Assembly (NCBI RefSeq): GCF_038449125.1
Contig: NZ_CP151800.1
Span: forward strand, 1,088,406 to 1,152,405
Origin: Kosakonia sp. BYX6
Lineage (GTDB): Bacteria; Pseudomonadota; Gammaproteobacteria; Enterobacterales; Enterobacteriaceae
Direction: 5' to 3'
Length of the DNA stretch: 64,000 nt
In this document: in pieces, positions 4,617 to 23,190 of the stretch
Numbering within the stretch: position 1 is the stretch's first letter
How the letters are laid out: every line of letters starts with the position of its first letter
Notes under the pieces: model-generated
What the model was told of the DNA's origin: nothing
Database searches by the model: none
Seen by the model: the letters and a program-made list of their open reading frames with translations, nothing else
Translations under genes and position numbers: made by a program

Positions 4617-5396
4617 TCAGAACATCACCTGACCGCCGGTGACATTGATCGACTGGCCGGTGCAATAGGAGGCTTTGGCGCTGGCGTAAAACATCAGCAC
4701 ATTCAGCACATCCTGGTAATCACAGCCGCGTTTGAGCGGCACTTTATCAATGTAATATTGCTCCACTTCGTCTGCTGGTAGGCCAAGCTTGCTGGCGTAC
4801 TGCGGAATAAGAGACTGGAACATTGGGGATTTCAACAGGTTGCCGAGCATCAGCGAGTGAACGGTAATACCGTATTCCGCCAGATCCAGCGCCAGCGATT
4901 GGGTCAGCCCAACGCCGCCGAATTTCGCCGCGCTATAGCCGGAATTGTGTTTGCTGCCCACTTTGCCGGATTTGGAGTTGATCTGAATAATGCGCCCCTG
5001 AATGCCGTCGCGAATCATCAGTTTGGAGAACTCGCGCGCGCAGAGGAAATAACCCACCAGATTCACCTGCAACGAGCGGTCAAAATCGCCGAGCGCAAAG
5101 TCGCTGATAAACGCCGCTTTGGCGATCCCGGCGCTGTACACCAGTAAATCCGCGCGGCCAAAAATCTCATCGACCCCGCGCGCCAGCGCCAGCACGCTGT
5201 GCTCACTGGTGGCATCGGCACCGAAGCCGTATGCCATTCCTTCACCGAACTCGCTATTGATCTCCTGCGCGACATTGGCCGCTTTATCACTCTGAATATC
5301 CACTACCGCCACGCGGTAACCTTCTGCGGCAAGCCCACGGCTAAGGAACGCCCCAAGGGTTTGTCCTCCACCAATGACAACGGCAACCTGTTTCAT
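4617..5396 (-). CDS. srlD: SrlD, sorbitol-6-phosphate 2-dehydrogenase
   Basis: A 259-residue short-chain dehydrogenase: N-terminal Rossmann motif (VIGGGQTLGAFLSRGLA), NAG-like SAGIAKA, and catalytic Ser/Tyr/Lys (INSKSG...YSAAKFG). It oxidises glucitol-6-phosphate to fructose-6-phosphate with NAD+. It is the catabolic enzyme of the operon, following the PTS genes. Confidence 0.96.
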   Translation of the reverse strand: MKQVAVVIGGGQTLGAFLSRGLAAEGYRVAVVDIQSDKAANVAQEINSEFGEGMAYGFGADATSEHSVLALARGVDEIFGRADLLVYSAGIAKAAFISDFALGDFDRSLQVNLVGYFLCAREFSKLMIRDGIQGRIIQINSKSGKVGSKHNSGYSAAKFGGVGLTQSLALDLAEYGITVHSLMLGNLLKSPMFQSLIPQYASKLGLPADEVEQYYIDKVPLKRGCDYQDVLNVLMFYASAKASYCTGQSINVTGGQVMF

Positions 5397-5413
5397 ACTC
5401 TTCTCCTTACGAC

Positions 5414-5776
5414 TTAAGCGATAAATTTCAAAATGCAGCCGGGGGCGATACCGTCCGGCACCGGGCCTGCGACGTGAACCGTTCCCGGATATTCCGCCTG
5501 CGTTTGCCCGTCGAAACGCAGGGTGATATGACCCAACTCGCGCAAATTCTGTTCGGCAACGTCGCCGACGGCGGTCACTGGGTAGTGCTTCTCGCCTAGC
5601 TCAAATTGCGCGCCCGGCAACAGCGCACCGTTCAGTGCGCCGTGGTTATGAATAAAACAGAACTCGGCGACATCGGCTGGCGCGCCTTCACGAAAAGTAA
5701 TCAGCATGTTGTCGCTGAGCGCGTCCGGGGCGCTTTCACCGATACGGGTAATGGTGGTTTGATAAATCACAGTCAT
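5414..5776 (-). CDS. srlB: SrlB, glucitol/sorbitol-specific PTS EIIA
   Basis: A 120-residue cytoplasmic EIIA of the Gut family. The phosphoryl-accepting histidine is in FCFIHNHG (His43 is the best candidate). It transfers phosphate from HPr to the EIIB domain of SrlE. It is 11 bp downstream of srlE. Confidence 0.95.
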   Translation of the reverse strand: MTVIYQTTITRIGESAPDALSDNMLITFREGAPADVAEFCFIHNHGALNGALLPGAQFELGEKHYPVTAVGDVAEQNLRELGHITLRFDGQTQAEYPGTVHVAGPVPDGIAPGCILKFIA

Positions 5777-5787
5777 AAGACACCCCC

Positions 5788-7423
<1,636 letters not shown>

Positions 7424-7576
7424 ATTTTGCGAGGGCGTACGAATTCAAATGAGCGATAAATGAAACGAAGAAAAGTGAAGTGCGAGTGAGTACGCAGGTG
7501 TTGCAGCGCTTCCTTGTCGATAGCCAGATGCTTTACCATACTTGCTCCTGGCTGAATTCGTTTAAATGGATGTCCC

Positions 7577-8665
7577 ATGTTGAAGCGTTGTTACGCAGCG
7601 TTGCTGCCTGCGTTTGTTGTGCTCTGTTCCTGTAGCAGTAAACCCCCGCTTGCTGAAGCCCCGCAGACCGTGTCGCCCGCGCCGTCCGGCGGTTTTCTCC
7701 TGGAGCCACAGCACAATGTGGTGATGAGCGGTGGCGACTTCGCCAATAACCCGGCGGCGGAGCGGTTTATTGACGCGATGGTGAGCAAGCACGGCTTTGA
7801 TCGTCAGCAACTGCATGAAATTCTCTCGCAGGCCAAACGTCTGGATTACGTGCTGCGCCTGATGGATAGACAGGCACCGACAACCACGGGGCCGACTGGG
7901 CCAAACGGCGCCTGGCTGCGTTATCGCAAACAGTTCATCACGCCAGATAACGTGCAAAACGGTGTGGCGTTCTGGAACCAATATCAGGATGCCCTTGACC
8001 GTGCCTGGATGGTGTACGGCGTACCGCCAGAAATTATTGTCGGCATTATCGGTGTGGAAACCCGTTGGGGCCGCGTGATGGGTAAAACCCGCATTCTCGA
8101 TGGGCTGGCGACGCTGGCCTTTGCTTACCCGCGCCGTGCGGACTATTTCGCCAGCGAGCTGGAAACCTTCTTGCTGATGGCGCGTGATGAGAGTGACGAT
8201 CCGCTCGAACTGAAAGGTTCTTTCGCCGGTGCGATGGGGTACGGTCAATTTATGCCGTCGTCCTATAAGCAATATGCGGTAGATTTCAACGGCGACGGGC
8301 ACATCAATCTGTGGGACCCGGTTGATGCGATTGGCAGCGTGGCGAATTACTTCAAACAGCATGGCTGGGTGAAAGGCGACCTGGTTGCTGTGCCAGCTAA
8401 CGGCCAGGCACCGGGCCTGGAAAACGGTTTTAAAACCAACTACAGCGTTGGACAGCTGGCGGCCGCGGGCTTAACACCGCAGCAGCCGCTGGGCGATCAT
8501 CAGCAGGCGAGCTTGCTGCGCCTTGATGTCGGCACCGGTTATGAATACTGGTATGGCTTGCCGAACTTCTACACCATCACCCGTTACAACCACAGCACGC
8601 ACTACGCAATGGCGGTCTGGCAGCTTGGCCAGGCGGTTTCGCTGGCGCGCATCAACATTCAATAA
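7577..8665 (+). CDS. mltB: MltB, membrane-bound lytic murein transglycosylase B
   Basis: A 362-residue outer-membrane lipoprotein: signal peptide with lipobox-like VVLCSC and lipidated Cys near 19, then the SLT family 3 catalytic domain. The catalytic glutamate is Glu161 in GIIGVETRWGR. An EF-hand-like calcium loop (DFNGDGHINLWD) is present. It cleaves glycan strands of murein to give 1,6-anhydromuropeptides. It is divergent from srlA. Confidence 0.96.
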   Translation: MLKRCYAALLPAFVVLCSCSSKPPLAEAPQTVSPAPSGGFLLEPQHNVVMSGGDFANNPAAERFIDAMVSKHGFDRQQLHEILSQAKRLDYVLRLMDRQAPTTTGPTGPNGAWLRYRKQFITPDNVQNGVAFWNQYQDALDRAWMVYGVPPEIIVGIIGVETRWGRVMGKTRILDGLATLAFAYPRRADYFASELETFLLMARDESDDPLELKGSFAGAMGYGQFMPSSYKQYAVDFNGDGHINLWDPVDAIGSVANYFKQHGWVKGDLVAVPANGQAPGLENGFKTNYSVGQLAAAGLTPQQPLGDHQQASLLRLDVGTGYEYWYGLPNFYTITRYNHSTHYAMAVWQLGQAVSLARINIQ

Positions 8666-8670
8666 TGCTT

Positions 8671-8690
8671 TCCCCTCCTGCGGGAGGGGA
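8671..8690 (+). terminator. GC-rich hairpin after mltB
   Basis: A perfect 8-bp stem (TCCCCTCC/GGAGGGGA) with loop TGCG begins 5 nt after the mltB stop. No U-run follows, so it may protect the 3' end rather than act as a strong intrinsic terminator. Confidence 0.5.
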
Positions 8691-8753
8691 CTGAAACATT
8701 TCGACGTACTCCCGTTACGTATTCCCGTTTACATCATTATCACTACCATTTAT

Positions 8754-8768
8754 TGTTACGTTATAACA
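8754..8768. promoter_or_regulatory. Candidate Zur box
   Basis: TGTTACGTTATAACA closely matches the gamma-proteobacterial Zur core TGTTATANTATAACA, with intact outer half-sites TGTTA and TAACA. It lies 14 bp upstream of the ATG at 8783, where a bound repressor would block the promoter of the metal transporter operon. It points to zinc rather than manganese as the substrate. Confidence 0.6.
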
Positions 8769-8782
8769 TATGGAGTGAGTGA

Positions 8783-8893
8783 ATGATTCCGCTAACACTG
8801 TTTTCCCTTTCTGGCATCACCCGCCTGTTATTGGCTGTGGGGCTATTGCTGGTGCTTTGGCTACTGACTGGCTGGGCGGTCGCGCTGCCATGA
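8783..8893 (+). CDS. 36-residue hydrophobic leader/membrane peptide of the metal transporter operon
   Basis: This small ORF starts with ATG 7 nt after a GGAG ribosome site (8772-8775). It encodes a short polar start, one strongly hydrophobic helix (LLLAVGLLLVLWLLTGWAVA) and ends LP. Its TGA overlaps the ATG of the ATPase gene (ATGA at 8890-8893), the classical sign of translational coupling. The ATPase ATG has no good ribosome site of its own. It could be a real small membrane protein or a leader ORF whose translation drives the ATPase. I do not recognise it; function unknown. Confidence 0.6.
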   Translation: MIPLTLFSLSGITRLLLAVGLLLVLWLLTGWAVALP

Positions 8894-9558
8894 TTGAACT
8901 TGACCATTTAGTGGCGGGCTATGGCCGACTGGCAATCACGCCTGCGCTGTGCGGCACGCTGGAACGCGGCAGCATGACGGCGATTGTCGGCGCGAACGGC
9001 TGCGGAAAATCGACACTGTTAAAAACGCTGGCAGGATTTTTACTGCCGGTCAGCGGCGTGCTGCACTGGCAACCGGCGCGACCCACAATCGGTTGGCTGG
9101 CGCAACGCCATGCGCTGGAATCGCAATTCCCGGTGACGGTACAAGAAGTGGTGAGCATGGGCTGCTGGCCGCGCGTTTCATTGTTTCGCGGCCTGAATCG
9201 CGACGCCCGCAAACGCGTGGCGCAAGGGCTGGAGCGCGTCGGGTTGACGGCTATGGCGCGTGAGACGATCGACACTCTTTCTGGCGGGCAATTTCAGCGC
9301 ATGTTGTTCGCCCGTGTCTGGGTGCAAAACGCGCCACTGGTCATGCTCGACGAACCTTTTACCGGCATTGACGAAATCACGTCGCAAATCTTGATGGAGC
9401 AAATTGTCGATATGCACCGCGCGGGGCAAACCCTGCTGGCGGTGCTCCACGACAGCGAACGGGTAACGCGCTATTTCCCACAAACCCTGCGCCTTGGCGA
9501 AAATGTGGCGCATTGGGGCGCGACGGAGCAACAGGTAAGGGAGAAGTGTCACGCATGA
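8890..9558 (+). CDS. Metal (zinc/manganese-type) ABC transporter ATP-binding protein
   Basis: A 222-residue ABC ATPase: Walker A GANGCGKST (about 36-44), signature LSGGQFQR, Walker B MLDEPF, and H-loop LHDS. It resembles ZnuC/MntB-type ATPases and energises the adjacent permease. The start at 8890 (MIELDHLVAGYG) is chosen because it aligns with the family; an in-frame GTG at 8779 would add 37 residues with no ABC homology. It overlaps the next gene by 4 bp. The operon is absent between mltB and pncC in E. coli K-12. Confidence 0.88.
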   Translation: MIELDHLVAGYGRLAITPALCGTLERGSMTAIVGANGCGKSTLLKTLAGFLLPVSGVLHWQPARPTIGWLAQRHALESQFPVTVQEVVSMGCWPRVSLFRGLNRDARKRVAQGLERVGLTAMARETIDTLSGGQFQRMLFARVWVQNAPLVMLDEPFTGIDEITSQILMEQIVDMHRAGQTLLAVLHDSERVTRYFPQTLRLGENVAHWGATEQQVREKCHA

Positions 9559-10418
9559 TCTGGCATCTCTTTTTCCAGCCGTTTATCGAATTTGGTTTTA
9601 TGCGGCGTGCGCTGGTGGTGTGCCTCGCGCTCTCTATCAGCACCACGGCATTAGGCGTCTTTTTGCTGCTGCGGCGCATGAGCCTGATGGGCGATGCTTT
9701 GTCACACGCCATTCTGCCCGGCGTGGCGGTGGGTTACCTGCTGAGCGGCATGTCGCTGCTGGCGATGAGCATCGGCGGGTTTATTGCCGGGATAAGCGTC
9801 GCGCTGGTGGCGGGATGGGTAAGCCGTCGCACACCGCTCAAAGAAGACGCCAGCTTTGCCGGTTTCTATCTTGGTTCGCTGGCGCTCGGCGTCACGCTGG
9901 TGTCGTTGCGTGGCTCCAGTGTTGACCTGCTGCATCTTTTGTTTGGCTCGATTCTGGCCGTGGATCGCGAAGCTGCGCTGTTTGTTGCCGGTGTCGCCAG
10001 TTTGACGCTGATTGTGCTGGCGTTGTGCTATCGCGGGTTAGTTAGCGAAGCCTTCGACAGCGCGTTTTTACAGGTTAATGCCCCGCGCTTGCCTGGCTTG
10101 CTGCACGGGCTGTTTCTGGCACTGCTGGTGCTCAACCTGGTGGCCGGGTTCCAGGTGCTCGGCACATTGATGGCGGTGGGTGTAATGATGCTGCCTGCCG
10201 TGGCAGCGCGCTGCTGGGCGCGAACATTACCGGGTTTATTGCTGTTAGCGGCTGGTATTGGCGCGCTGTGCGCCTGGCTGGGGCTGAGCCTGTCGTGGAT
10301 GGCGGGTTTGCCTGCCGGTCCGGCGATTGTGCTGACCGCCAGCCTGATCTTCTTTTTTTCCATTTTTTTCGGCACGCGTAGCGGACTGGCACACAGCCTG
10401 CGCGCACTTTTCAATTAG
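9555..10418 (+). CDS. Metal ABC transporter permease (ZnuB/MntC-like)
   Basis: A 287-residue polytopic membrane protein of the ABC-3 family, with about eight hydrophobic helices and the characteristic LMGDALSHAILPGVAVGY segment near residue 40. It forms the inner-membrane channel. Its ATG at 9555 overlaps the ATPase stop (ATGA). An upstream in-frame start at 9513 lies inside the ATPase gene and is less likely. Confidence 0.88.
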   Translation: MIWHLFFQPFIEFGFMRRALVVCLALSISTTALGVFLLLRRMSLMGDALSHAILPGVAVGYLLSGMSLLAMSIGGFIAGISVALVAGWVSRRTPLKEDASFAGFYLGSLALGVTLVSLRGSSVDLLHLLFGSILAVDREAALFVAGVASLTLIVLALCYRGLVSEAFDSAFLQVNAPRLPGLLHGLFLALLVLNLVAGFQVLGTLMAVGVMMLPAVAARCWARTLPGLLLLAAGIGALCAWLGLSLSWMAGLPAGPAIVLTASLIFFFSIFFGTRSGLAHSLRALFN

Positions 10419-17581: not shown

Positions 17582-17658
17582 GCATCCGTAGCTCAGCTGG
17601 ATAGAGTACTCGGCTACGAACCGAGCGGTCGGAGGTTCGAATCCTCCCGGATGCACCA
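17582..17658 (+). tRNA. tRNA-Arg (anticodon ACG), copy 3
   Basis: A third identical copy, 64 nt after copy 2. E. coli K-12 has four copies at this locus (argQ, argZ, argY, argV), so this strain has one fewer here. Confidence 0.97.
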
Positions 17659-17794
17659 TCTTCTGTAAGTCCCCCATATTCTGCGAAATTCCTCCCAACA
17701 AAGCACAAACCCCTCTGCTTATTGTTCGCTGGCAGCGACAAAAAGCCTTGTTTACGTTAAAGTAAATGTTTGTTATCTGGTTTACGAGAGCACG

Positions 17795-21080: not shown

Positions 21081-21103
21081 CTGCCATTTTTGTCGTTGTC
21101 TTT

Positions 21104-21141
21104 AATACCGCCTTTCTGTTAGCAGAAGGCGGTATTATTAT
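21104..21141 (+). terminator. luxS terminator
   Basis: Long inverted repeat AATACCGCCTT/AAGGCGGTATT, extended by CTG/CAG, is followed by ATTATTT. The 230 bp after it, up to the lipoprotein gene, is strongly AT-rich with no supported gene and presumably holds that operon's promoter. Confidence 0.8.
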
Positions 21142-21374
21142 TTGGCTGGTATCTATCAGATAATTTTTATTCACGAAATATATTCAAGCTTTGAATTTAT
21201 ATTAATTATTAATGTGTCTGTAATATCCTGTTTAGCTAAATGTCTTCTGGTTGTCATTTAATTCTTGCCATGATAGTTTTCTCACCTCGTCGTTATTAGA
21301 CGAACGTTTACTTTCAATATATTTACCTTATAAACAAATTTCAGCGAAAAAGATGCCTGAATGACGAGGATATT

Positions 21375-21746
21375 ATGCGGCGTTTACAGTTTTCTATCAT
21401 ATGTACCTCAATTTTTTTACCGCTCACATTAGCCGGTTGCGTCAAATCGACAGTGCCCACAGTAGTGCAGGATGCGCCGCAAAAGCAGCAAACACAGCAG
21501 TGTTATGAGCTACTCACCGCATTAAAAGGTTTAGATAACTCAGCTTATGAAACATATAAGCAACAGTTCAACACCATCAATCAAACCTACGAAGTTTATA
21601 AGAAAAATCAGCCGATAATAGATAACAACTCGTCGGAAATAATGAAATCTGAAATTGACAACAAAATTGAAGTTGTCTGTTCTCGCGTACGCAGCGCGGT
21701 ATTCACGGATATGTCCAGACGAGCAAATACACTGAAACAGTTATGA
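21375..21746 (+). CDS. Small predicted lipoprotein (unknown function)
   Basis: A 123-residue protein with a type II signal peptide and lipobox LAGC (lipidated Cys near 22). The mature part is short, polar and probably helical, with two further cysteines (QQCYELL and VVCSRV) that could form a disulfide. Lys after the lipidated Cys (CVKST) does not suggest inner-membrane retention. The gene is clearly more AT-rich than its neighbours. GAGGA precedes the ATG. Its TGA overlaps the next gene's ATG, so the two proteins are translationally coupled and probably work together. I do not recognise the family. Confidence 0.8.
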   Translation: MRRLQFSIICTSIFLPLTLAGCVKSTVPTVVQDAPQKQQTQQCYELLTALKGLDNSAYETYKQQFNTINQTYEVYKKNQPIIDNNSSEIMKSEIDNKIEVVCSRVRSAVFTDMSRRANTLKQL

Positions 21747-23158
21747 GAAAACTATTATATTCATCAGCTGTATTGTTATCGGCTATTTCAACCTCTGCGG
21801 TCTGTGCTGATCCTGCGGCGCTACTCGACCGCCTTAGCAAAGAGAACATAATATCCGTCGAGCCAAAATCCCCTTTCACCAATGACAGTACTTCTGCAAG
21901 CAAGGTTGCCATGCCTGCCTCTCCGGCTCCTGCGCCAAAGCGCGATGTGCCCAAAGAAGAGGCAAGCACTAAAGAGATCAGGCAGCTGAAAAGTAAGCTC
22001 GCGGCGTCACGGCGTGAAGTACAAGTATTGCGAAAAAAACAAGCCGCAGCTGCACCTGCAAAGGCCCCGGTTGAGCAGAACAATACCGTTAGTCAGGAAA
22101 ACAAACAGTTGAAGCAGCAGTTGCAGCAGCTTGCGGAAACGAATAAAAAGCACGCGCAGGATGCCGGGAAATTACAGGCTGTCAGCGACGAGAACAAGCA
22201 ACTGCAACAGCAGCTCAAAACCAGCCAACAGCAGTTGGCTGAAGAGAAAAAGCAGCGTGCAGAACAAAGCTCGACGCTACAAATCGCGGCAACGAAAACG
22301 GCGGATCACGCTAAGCAGCTCACGCAAGCGAATAAAAAGCATGATGAGATAAAGGGCCAGCTTGATGTCGCCACAAAGAAAATAAGCGAGCAAACGGCGC
22401 GTATCGCGGCGCTGGAAGAGAAATTGAAACAGAGCGCTGAAGAGAAGGCGACGGTTGAGAAGCAGCTCACCACTGCGCTGGCAACAACCCACGCGCCTGC
22501 AAAAGAGGCCGAGAAAACCACGGCGCCGCTTTACTCGCTGGCCGCAAATAAATCAGCTCAGGCGAGGACAAACTATGCCTGGGGCGTCTGGTTTGCGGCA
22601 AAAGTGCAACTCGAAAGCGAAATGCTGAAAAGCACCGGGCAGAAATTTATGCCTCCCGCTTTTGTGCAAGGTTTACAGGACAAATTCGCCGGTAGCTTGC
22701 AGATGAAGAATGCCGATATCGAGAAGGCACTGGACACCCTTAACAAGCAAGTGGATGATGCGCGAAAACGCGATATGGCGCAAAACAAGAAGCGGGCGCA
22801 GGCGCTTCTCGCCAGCGCGGCAAAGCTTAAAGGTGCTGTGCGGGGAGAAAACGGCGTCATCTATCTGGTTGAGAAGCGCGGGCTAGGGGCAGCGATCAGT
22901 AATAACGATGTCATCCGCTTCAAAGTGGATGAAACCATCAGCTCCGGGCAAGTTCTGGCGCAGGGAGAGGTTCATACCGGCCGGGTGAGCGAGCTTCCGC
23001 CATTGATGCGCGTCGGTGTGGAAAAGCTGGTTATTGGCGGCAGGGTGAAAATTTATATCCCCGTCGAACTGGCTTATGGTGAAGAGGGAATACCCGGCAA
23101 GGTGCCCGCCGGTGTAGCCTCGACCATGACACTGGAAGTTCTCAGCATCGAAAAATAA
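21743..23158 (+). CDS. Exported coiled-coil protein with FKBP-like C-terminal domain
   Basis: A 471-residue protein. A signal peptide (cleavage near CADPAA, about 22) is followed by a Pro/Ala linker, then a long charged Gln/Lys/Glu-rich coiled coil (about 75-250). Next come an FkpA/Mip-like dimerisation helix region (about 265-375) and a C-terminal FKBP fold (about 380-471) recognised by VELAYGEEGIPGKVPAG. The substrate pocket looks degenerate: the usual V-x-Y...FDSS stretch is replaced and the pocket-floor Trp position appears to be Met/Arg, while the AYG tyrosine is kept. It may therefore be a periplasmic scaffold or chaperone rather than an active prolyl isomerase. Inserted between luxS and emrB relative to E. 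coli. Confidence 0.8.
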   Translation: MRKLLYSSAVLLSAISTSAVCADPAALLDRLSKENIISVEPKSPFTNDSTSASKVAMPASPAPAPKRDVPKEEASTKEIRQLKSKLAASRREVQVLRKKQAAAAPAKAPVEQNNTVSQENKQLKQQLQQLAETNKKHAQDAGKLQAVSDENKQLQQQLKTSQQQLAEEKKQRAEQSSTLQIAATKTADHAKQLTQANKKHDEIKGQLDVATKKISEQTARIAALEEKLKQSAEEKATVEKQLTTALATTHAPAKEAEKTTAPLYSLAANKSAQARTNYAWGVWFAAKVQLESEMLKSTGQKFMPPAFVQGLQDKFAGSLQMKNADIEKALDTLNKQVDDARKRDMAQNKKRAQALLASAAKLKGAVRGENGVIYLVEKRGLGAAISNNDVIRFKVDETISSGQVLAQGEVHTGRVSELPPLMRVGVEKLVIGGRVKIYIPVELAYGEEGIPGKVPAGVASTMTLEVLSIEK

Positions 23159-23190
23159 AAAATCGCCTCCTAAATGGAGGCGATTTGCTT
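23158..23190. terminator. Bidirectional terminator between the FKBP-like gene and emrB
   Basis: Perfect 11-bp stem AAATCGCCTCC/GGAGGCGATTT with loop TAAAT, flanked by an A-run on the left and T-rich sequence on the right. It separates convergent genes. Confidence 0.85.

Follow-up and report, generated by a model that had tools for sequence, protein, structure and literature searches.

FkpA of Escherichia coli (PDB 1q6h) resembles FKBPL, the exported protein described here, in its signal peptide, in the order FKBP_N then FKBP_C and in its fold. FKBPL differs from it by a long coiled coil of variable length, an N-terminal motif, a replaced pocket, a lipoprotein partner and a location outside the kefB-slyD-fkpA context. 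Legionella Mip likewise joins an FKBP head to a helical part. Mip has a single helix arm, is active as an isomerase and is not known to have a partner lipoprotein. Among surface structures, the inverse autotransporters (intimin/invasin, PF11924) have a rod of variable repeat number and include a subset with an adjoining lipoprotein from a sister branch of the family described below. Their rod, however, consists of barrel-anchored Ig repeats, and no homology to FKBPL was found. Chaperone-usher accessory genes offer a further comparison, since FKBPL genes lie in or beside such clusters on five plasmids, whereas the pair described here has no fimbrial genes around it. In our view the lipoprotein–FKBPL pair is a variation on a known fold, and its lipoprotein possibly represents a new family of adaptors. 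In a literature search largely confined to papers outside subscription, neither the pair nor the lipoprotein family was found described. One report mentions, downstream of sinH, an inverse autotransporter gene, sinI and not this lipoprotein (PMC6714894).

Gene layout and composition of the locus

Around the pair, the window (the whole stretch analysed, 64,000 nucleotides from Kosakonia sp. BYX6) carries, in order, tRNA-Ser, three tRNA-Arg, yqaB-like, yqaA-like, gshA, micA (antisense), luxS, the lipoprotein gene and the FKBPL gene, followed by emrB, emrA and mprA, which are convergent to the pair. The gene names are those we presume, save where Pfam, Rfam or ARAGORN backs them. ARAGORN also called a tRNA-Arg(tcg) at window positions 17598-17676 on the minus strand, opposite tRNA-Arg(acg), which is probably a false call. 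Both open reading frames of the pair, described with their ATGA overlap in an earlier sequence-only reading, were confirmed in position, strand and length (Table 1). That reading had also called the pair an AT-rich two-gene insertion. The description suits the leader and the lipoprotein gene (GC 0.406) and does not extend to the FKBPL gene, whose GC of 0.528 is near that of the window (0.551). Terminator-like sites, scored as consensus matches, are hardly commoner than in shuffles (5 observed against 3.2 expected); the stems on either side of the pair are consistent with a transcription unit of its own. Usher and chaperone profiles matched nothing within the window, the genome's three usher matches lying elsewhere, and no adhesin, usher or outer-membrane pore gene adjoins the pair.

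Table 1. Features of the pair and its flanks, in window coordinates
Feature	Position	Strand	Remarks
Lipoprotein gene, 123 aa	21375..21746	+	Signal peptide with lipobox LAGC; predicted three-helix bundle
FKBPL gene, 471 aa exported protein	21743..23158	+	ATGA overlap with lipoprotein gene
FKBPL signal peptide and conserved short helix (mature N-terminus)	21743..21859	+	Alignment of FKBPL N-termini
FKBPL coiled-coil rod, about residues 72-248	21956..22486	+	Model, heptad periodicity, five-Kosakonia alignment; length varies in relatives
FKBP_N and pseudo-FKBP_C, about residues 271-471	22553..23155	+	FkpA fold, pocket residues replaced
AT-rich leader of the pair, GC 0.316	21081..21374	unstranded	
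Terminator-like stem-loop 3' of luxS	21112-21129		Consensus match only
Terminator-like stem-loop, 11 pairs, between FKBPL and convergent emrB	23160..23186	listed on minus	Consensus match only

The genome's close named relatives are four Kosakonia species. The site varies among relatives. Two congeners without the pair (G072 and G193) have emrB directly after luxS, and in G295, G297, G301 and G302 the first 1.5 kb past luxS showed neither the pair nor emrB. Two further genera (g68 and g96) also carry the pair, together with extra genes, in the luxS-emrB interval; either the interval was occupied before these genera diverged or it is a hot spot. In L064 and L067, from two other genera, the luxS-emrB interval holds isopropylmalate-synthase-like and AAA/HD genes, joined in L064 by an RNA ligase.

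Distribution and conservation of the pair

The full FKBPL protein matches nine of the 15 genomes of the genus and, at E 1e-25, eight of 295 genomes of the family, the source genome being included in both counts; the lipoprotein adjoins in all eight. Searching the 295 family genomes with the FKBPL C-terminal domain gave 61 places at 173 bits or more, short frames (about 250-325 aa) that we took as FkpA having scored up to 171 bits. This number is a lower bound, because divergent long FKBPLs (e.g. L132, L138, L141-L144) lie outside it. One of the 61 is an ordinary FkpA (L201), one is an FkpA paralogue (L200) and three are cut by contig ends, which leaves 56 assessable; the places other than L200 and L201, contig-cut ones included, are spread over 48 genomes.

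A family lipoprotein lies within 3 kb of FKBPL at 50 of the 56 assessable places (50/57 if L200 is counted as an FKBPL), overlapping it or standing within 100 nt at 47, with distances taken on stop-to-stop open reading frames and one of the 50, L188, being a 196-aa fragment. No lipoprotein was detectable within 3 kb at the other six (L186, L187, L193, L196, L197 and L198). The coupling of the two genes claimed in the sequence-only reading therefore recurs in relatives, so that the refuting case named there, a lipoprotein gene not kept next to the FKBP-like one, did not arise, and the pairing is tight enough to argue for a lipoprotein–FKBPL complex. Neither protein belongs to a named family in Pfam or NCBIfam beyond the FKBP domains, in keeping with that reading, which recognised no named system. 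A blastn search of E. coli genomes found no DNA match to the pair. We view lipoprotein–FKBPL as a widespread, apparently unnamed gene pair of gut and plant bacteria.

The lipoprotein is a predicted three-helix bundle with invariant cysteines

In the window lipoprotein, the lipid-bearing Cys22 of the LAGC lipobox is followed by Val at +2. The two extra cysteines that had been pointed out earlier are Cys43 and Cys102 in the mature part (there is also Cys10 in the signal peptide), and C22, C43 and C102 are the sole invariant columns among 30 aligned diverse lipoproteins, in an alignment that left out five of 34 non-redundant members. One member of the family, L043 10062-10469, has no lipobox. AlphaFold, given five close sequences, predicts a three-helix bundle (helices 37-53, 55-81 and 84-122) in which 75 residues reach a pLDDT of 90 or more. 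Compared with the PDB, the model had no match at E 0.001 or better, from which novelty of the fold does not follow. The sequence stays below the curated Pfam and NCBIfam cut-offs, its best scores being 19.7 of 27 bits for DUF7321 and 16.8 of 80 for MAG5150.

Asp occupies +2 in none of the 39 distinct lipoproteins with a script-detected lipobox, which by the Lol rule fits sorting to the outer membrane.

The family was found in at least 18 of 394 genomes order-wide (scoring the best 10 or fewer candidates per genome) and in at least one of 276 class-wide, namely the source genome (scoring the best 14 or fewer). Plasmid matches of the window lipoprotein amount to 106 records, 87 of them from Escherichia. 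Weak matches of 255 aa (G003, G060, G155 and G243) were dismissed as spurious; some of the weak places from that search were fetched, and the one opened (L153) had no profile match.

The FKBPL head keeps the FkpA fold and has lost its pocket

The FkpA-like region was borne out by Pfam: FKBP_N (residues 275-376, E 7.7e-11) is followed by a weak FKBP_C (416-457, E 5.8e-5), both above their gathering scores. The head model aligns with FkpA (PDB 1q6h) over 150 residues of the stretch 317-470 (Z 15.1, rmsd 3.7, 22% identity) and with Legionella Mip (PDB 1fd9 and 8bjc) at Z 14.7-14.8. Its pLDDT is 73-88 in most blocks from residue 331, 52-65 at 441-460 and below 60 before 331. Against the FkpA equivalog PRK10902 of NCBIfam, FKBPL scores 78.9 bits, below the 215-bit cut-off.

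We compared eight pocket positions, numbered by what we take to be the FKBP12 scheme: Y26, F36, D37, F46, V55, I56, W59 and Y82; I91, P93 and F99 were not located in the alignment. None of the 54 aligned FKBPLs keeps FkpA's residue at any of the first seven, the D37 column being less certain because one subfamily has an Asp one column away, and 53 of the 54 keep the Tyr82 equivalent. As a control, two ordinary FkpA proteins in the same alignment keep all eight. With these residues absent throughout at seven of eight positions, FKBPL is probably no isomerase, and the retention of the fold alongside the loss of the pocket argues for binding without isomerisation. The source genome encodes a separate FkpA.

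The paralogue at L200 (6748-8238, 496 aa) keeps four of the eight pocket residues, and where FKBPL has its coil it has an N-terminal part of low complexity. It adjoins an ordinary fkpA (8459-9253), slyD and kefB (names that we presume from sequence), and it may, judging from these features, be a halfway form between FkpA and FKBPL. The sequence-only reading had mentioned neither the lost pocket residues nor the occurrence of the lipoprotein family next to inverse autotransporters and type IVb pili.

The FKBPL arm is a coiled coil of freely varying length

Residues of about 24-38 (PAALLDRLSKENIIS) form a conserved short helix in the alignment of FKBPL N-termini, followed by a Pro/Ala/Ser-rich linker. 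The helix motif differs by subfamily (LLxxLxxExII, VPALLQFAEQY or FNxVIEDFDRY), and the model places a helix at 24-33 with low confidence, as part of a whole-protein prediction that is weak (mean pLDDT 59, pTM 0.33). The coiled coil of about 175 residues announced in the sequence-only reading was a fair estimate, with model helices at 72-101, 116-175 and 183-248. Among coil segments of at least 80 residues, heptad power exceeds that of shuffles by more than 3 s.d. in 52 of 64, with a spectral peak whose median, 103 degrees, compares with 102.9 expected.

FKBPL frames range from about 330 to 1834 residues, which speaks against a fixed periplasmic ruler. The longest FKBPL-type open frame (L198 6283-11787, 1834 residues) has no detectable lipoprotein nearby. 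By a crude rule, the longest uninterrupted coil run has a median of 185 and a maximum of 1,229 residues; with 0.15 nm per residue, the latter comes to about 180 nm. Here the earlier proposal of a periplasmic spanner finds no support, since uninterrupted coils running from tens to more than 1,200 residues among relatives cannot be accounted for by a fixed span from inner to outer membrane.

Tandem repeats of at least 42 nt, in-frame and 81-98% matching, occur in 38 of 79 FKBPL genes, and in all 94 repeat rows the period is a multiple of three. Classed by best period, 15 of the 38 genes have 7n residues (p = 1.2e-4) and 12 have 7n+4, the period of a coiled-coil stutter. Taken together, the two classes account for 27 of 38 (p = 7e-8), or 17 of 25 with distinct periods counted once (p = 5e-5), the 7n+4 class having been picked after the periods were seen. 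L200 and L201 were excluded from the coil and repeat statistics.

Three candidate relationships of FKBPL were set aside. An N-terminal docking motif common to FKBPL and inverse autotransporters was convincing by eye and unsupported by profile tests: the FKBPL profile ranked 13 autotransporter N-termini over 146 other exported proteins at p = 3e-6 and over their own shuffles at p = 0.043, and the reverse test on 40 FKBPLs gave p = 2e-10 and 0.3, respectively. Being near-null against own shuffles, the apparent motif is explained by composition. A link to anti-phage defence was suggested by PADLOC matches to the LmuB and JetC models, which fall on coil-rich parts and were read as coiled-coil similarity. 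Three matches in a phage collection cover residues 265-469 only, at 28% identity, and were taken as FkpA-like.

Genomic neighbours of FKBPL and of the lipoprotein family

FKBPL matches 23 plasmid records, of which seven were opened; five of these hold FKBPLs and two hold FkpA-type proteins. On the five (hosts: Salmonella twice, Serratia entomophila, E. albertii and Enterobacter), FKBPL is part of a chaperone-usher cluster or adjoins one, and a family lipoprotein lies nearby in every case. In fetched stretches of about 9-20 kb around the 61 FKBPL places, an usher gene lies within 10 kb at 17 and a LuxR-type gene within 6 kb at 16. EAL-domain genes stand beside the lipoprotein or FKBPL on three opened plasmid records.

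For 100 lipoprotein-family ORFs, among which the broken gene L118 is counted twice, we recorded the nearest profiled same-strand downstream gene within 2 kb: FKBPL in 51, an inverse autotransporter in 18, another lipoprotein in four, a TcpA-type pilin in two, LuxR in one and none of these in 24. Four of these 24 unlinked ORFs adjoin an autotransporter gene at its far end and two are within 1.5 kb of FKBPL; behind another of the 24, L146, an FKBPL-type start appears where the contig ends. The source genome holds, besides the window pair, a lipoprotein–autotransporter pair at C1:4272216-4273864, in which a second lipoprotein immediately precedes an inverse autotransporter gene containing six Big_1 stretches (locus L080, C1:4264001-4284000, about 5315-10005 within the locus).

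Partner type was mapped on a weakly resolved lipoprotein tree (94 rows, 84 columns), which excluded ORFs that were shorter than 100 aa, lacked a recognisable cysteine pair or had a core identical to another's, and whose labels come from neighbours within 2 kb, 18 rows being unlabelled. The 21 autotransporter-linked lipoproteins fall on one side of a branch (SH-aLRT 96) and the two pilus-linked ones (TcpA/CofB, type IVb) on another branch (SH-aLRT 99); 53 are FKBPL-linked. Partner type is stable on this tree, with two changes compared with a shuffled mean of 20.5. The position of one branch next to some of the inverse autotransporters is a hint that a role in cell-surface building is shared. 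A role as general partner of inverse autotransporters was rejected: a Pfam search of 119 genomes gave 30 further loci, with the lipoprotein in the 1.5-kb flanks of none, so that just a subset of such adhesins is involved. Eight other places from that search are the lipoprotein-linked ones already found.

Other contexts were also observed. In the Rahnella record, the one opened of 10, the lipoprotein has neither adhesin nor FKBPL nearby, and a copy on a Citrobacter plasmid is followed by acyltransferase and hydrolase genes. In the plasmid record of E. coli EMG2 (L218, 8992-10552), an F+ ancestor of K-12, two family lipoproteins flank a gene annotated as a polymer-forming cytoskeletal protein, and an EAL-domain gene that also scores with the LuxR profile follows. 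Three more lipoproteins have no FKBPL or adhesin directly adjoining; by eye, L163 7852-8313 is near apparent flagellar export genes, and L150 7295-7822 and L156 5326-5841 are near type VI secretion spike-like genes.

A proposed tethered module for surface-structure assembly

Our preferred reading, to which we give a probability of about 0.4 and which is therefore tentative, is that the pair forms an outer-membrane-tethered, non-enzymatic module that helps to assemble surface structures as a chaperone (holdase) or adaptor. The lipoprotein would be a three-helix bundle, pinned by a disulfide, at the periplasmic side of the outer membrane, and the conserved N-terminal helix of FKBPL would be the contact that holds FKBPL to it. 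A flexible linker and an arm of freely varying length would then bear the FkpA-like head, which may dimerise and, though not an isomerase, would bind unfolded or assembling clients. Neighbouring chaperone-usher fimbriae would supply these clients in many relatives; the Kosakonia pair stands alone between luxS and emrB. A review describes binding of the EspP passenger by FkpA and unimpaired pertactin secretion in E. coli after fkpA loss (PMC8151025). The EspP result makes a holdase for surface proteins plausible by analogy, despite the result with pertactin. Against the tethered chaperone we count an arm of 1,200 residues, which a chaperone does not obviously need, together with the lone window pair, the six FKBPL places lacking a lipoprotein, the lone Rahnella lipoprotein, the 0/30 autotransporter loci, the L043 member lacking a lipobox, the unsupported docking motif and the pertactin finding.

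Somewhat unlikely, in our judgement, is that FKBPL is a structural fibre whose variable length is its function, held by the lipoprotein on or under the outer membrane, with the pseudo-FKBP tip as a binding head; inverse autotransporters and pili may be held in this way in sister loci. The free coil length that counts against a spanner leaves room for this role, the in-frame repeats of 38 FKBPL genes favour periods of 7n or 7n+4 residues, and the lipoprotein family's other neighbours are elongated surface structures; however, the window pair has no adjoining outer-membrane pore gene, and FKBPL bears, by sequence, only a signal peptide.

That the pair instead senses the state of the envelope or of an adhesin and signals to a LuxR-type regulator or a c-di-GMP enzyme is quite improbable. 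LuxR-type genes near 16 of the 61 places and the EAL-domain genes on plasmids would fit such a sensory module, but most of the 61 places have no such gene in the stretch examined, none adjoins the window pair and no inner-membrane component was recognised. Very unlikely is an ordinary, active isomerase of the FkpA/Mip type that is membrane-tethered by happenstance: the FKBP domain matches, the FkpA fold and the Tyr82 equivalent speak for it, against which stand the seven changed pocket positions in all 54 proteins and the separate FkpA of the genome. Chance neighbours of unrelated function on a mobile segment, a reading to which the variable site within the genus and the plasmid-borne relatives lend something, are scarcely credible given adjacency kept across many genera and different sites.

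Implications

Beyond the tethered module, we also hold out, as an unlikely but broader reading, that the unnamed outer-membrane lipoprotein family is a common adaptor for unrelated, length-variable rods of the surface or envelope (coiled-coil pseudo-FKBPs, some inverse autotransporters and type IVb pili), and that FKBPL is a new envelope fibre with uninterrupted coils of up to about 1,230 residues and a head converted from an enzyme to a binding tip. The two lipoprotein copies on the EMG2 plasmid open the adaptor idea to testing in K-12. If true, a small lipoprotein family annotated as 'hypothetical' would mark and serve several adhesin classes, and an enzyme fold would have been re-used as the head of a rod whose length shifts by repeat shuffling. 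The family would then give a way into the coupling between surface structures and the outer membrane.
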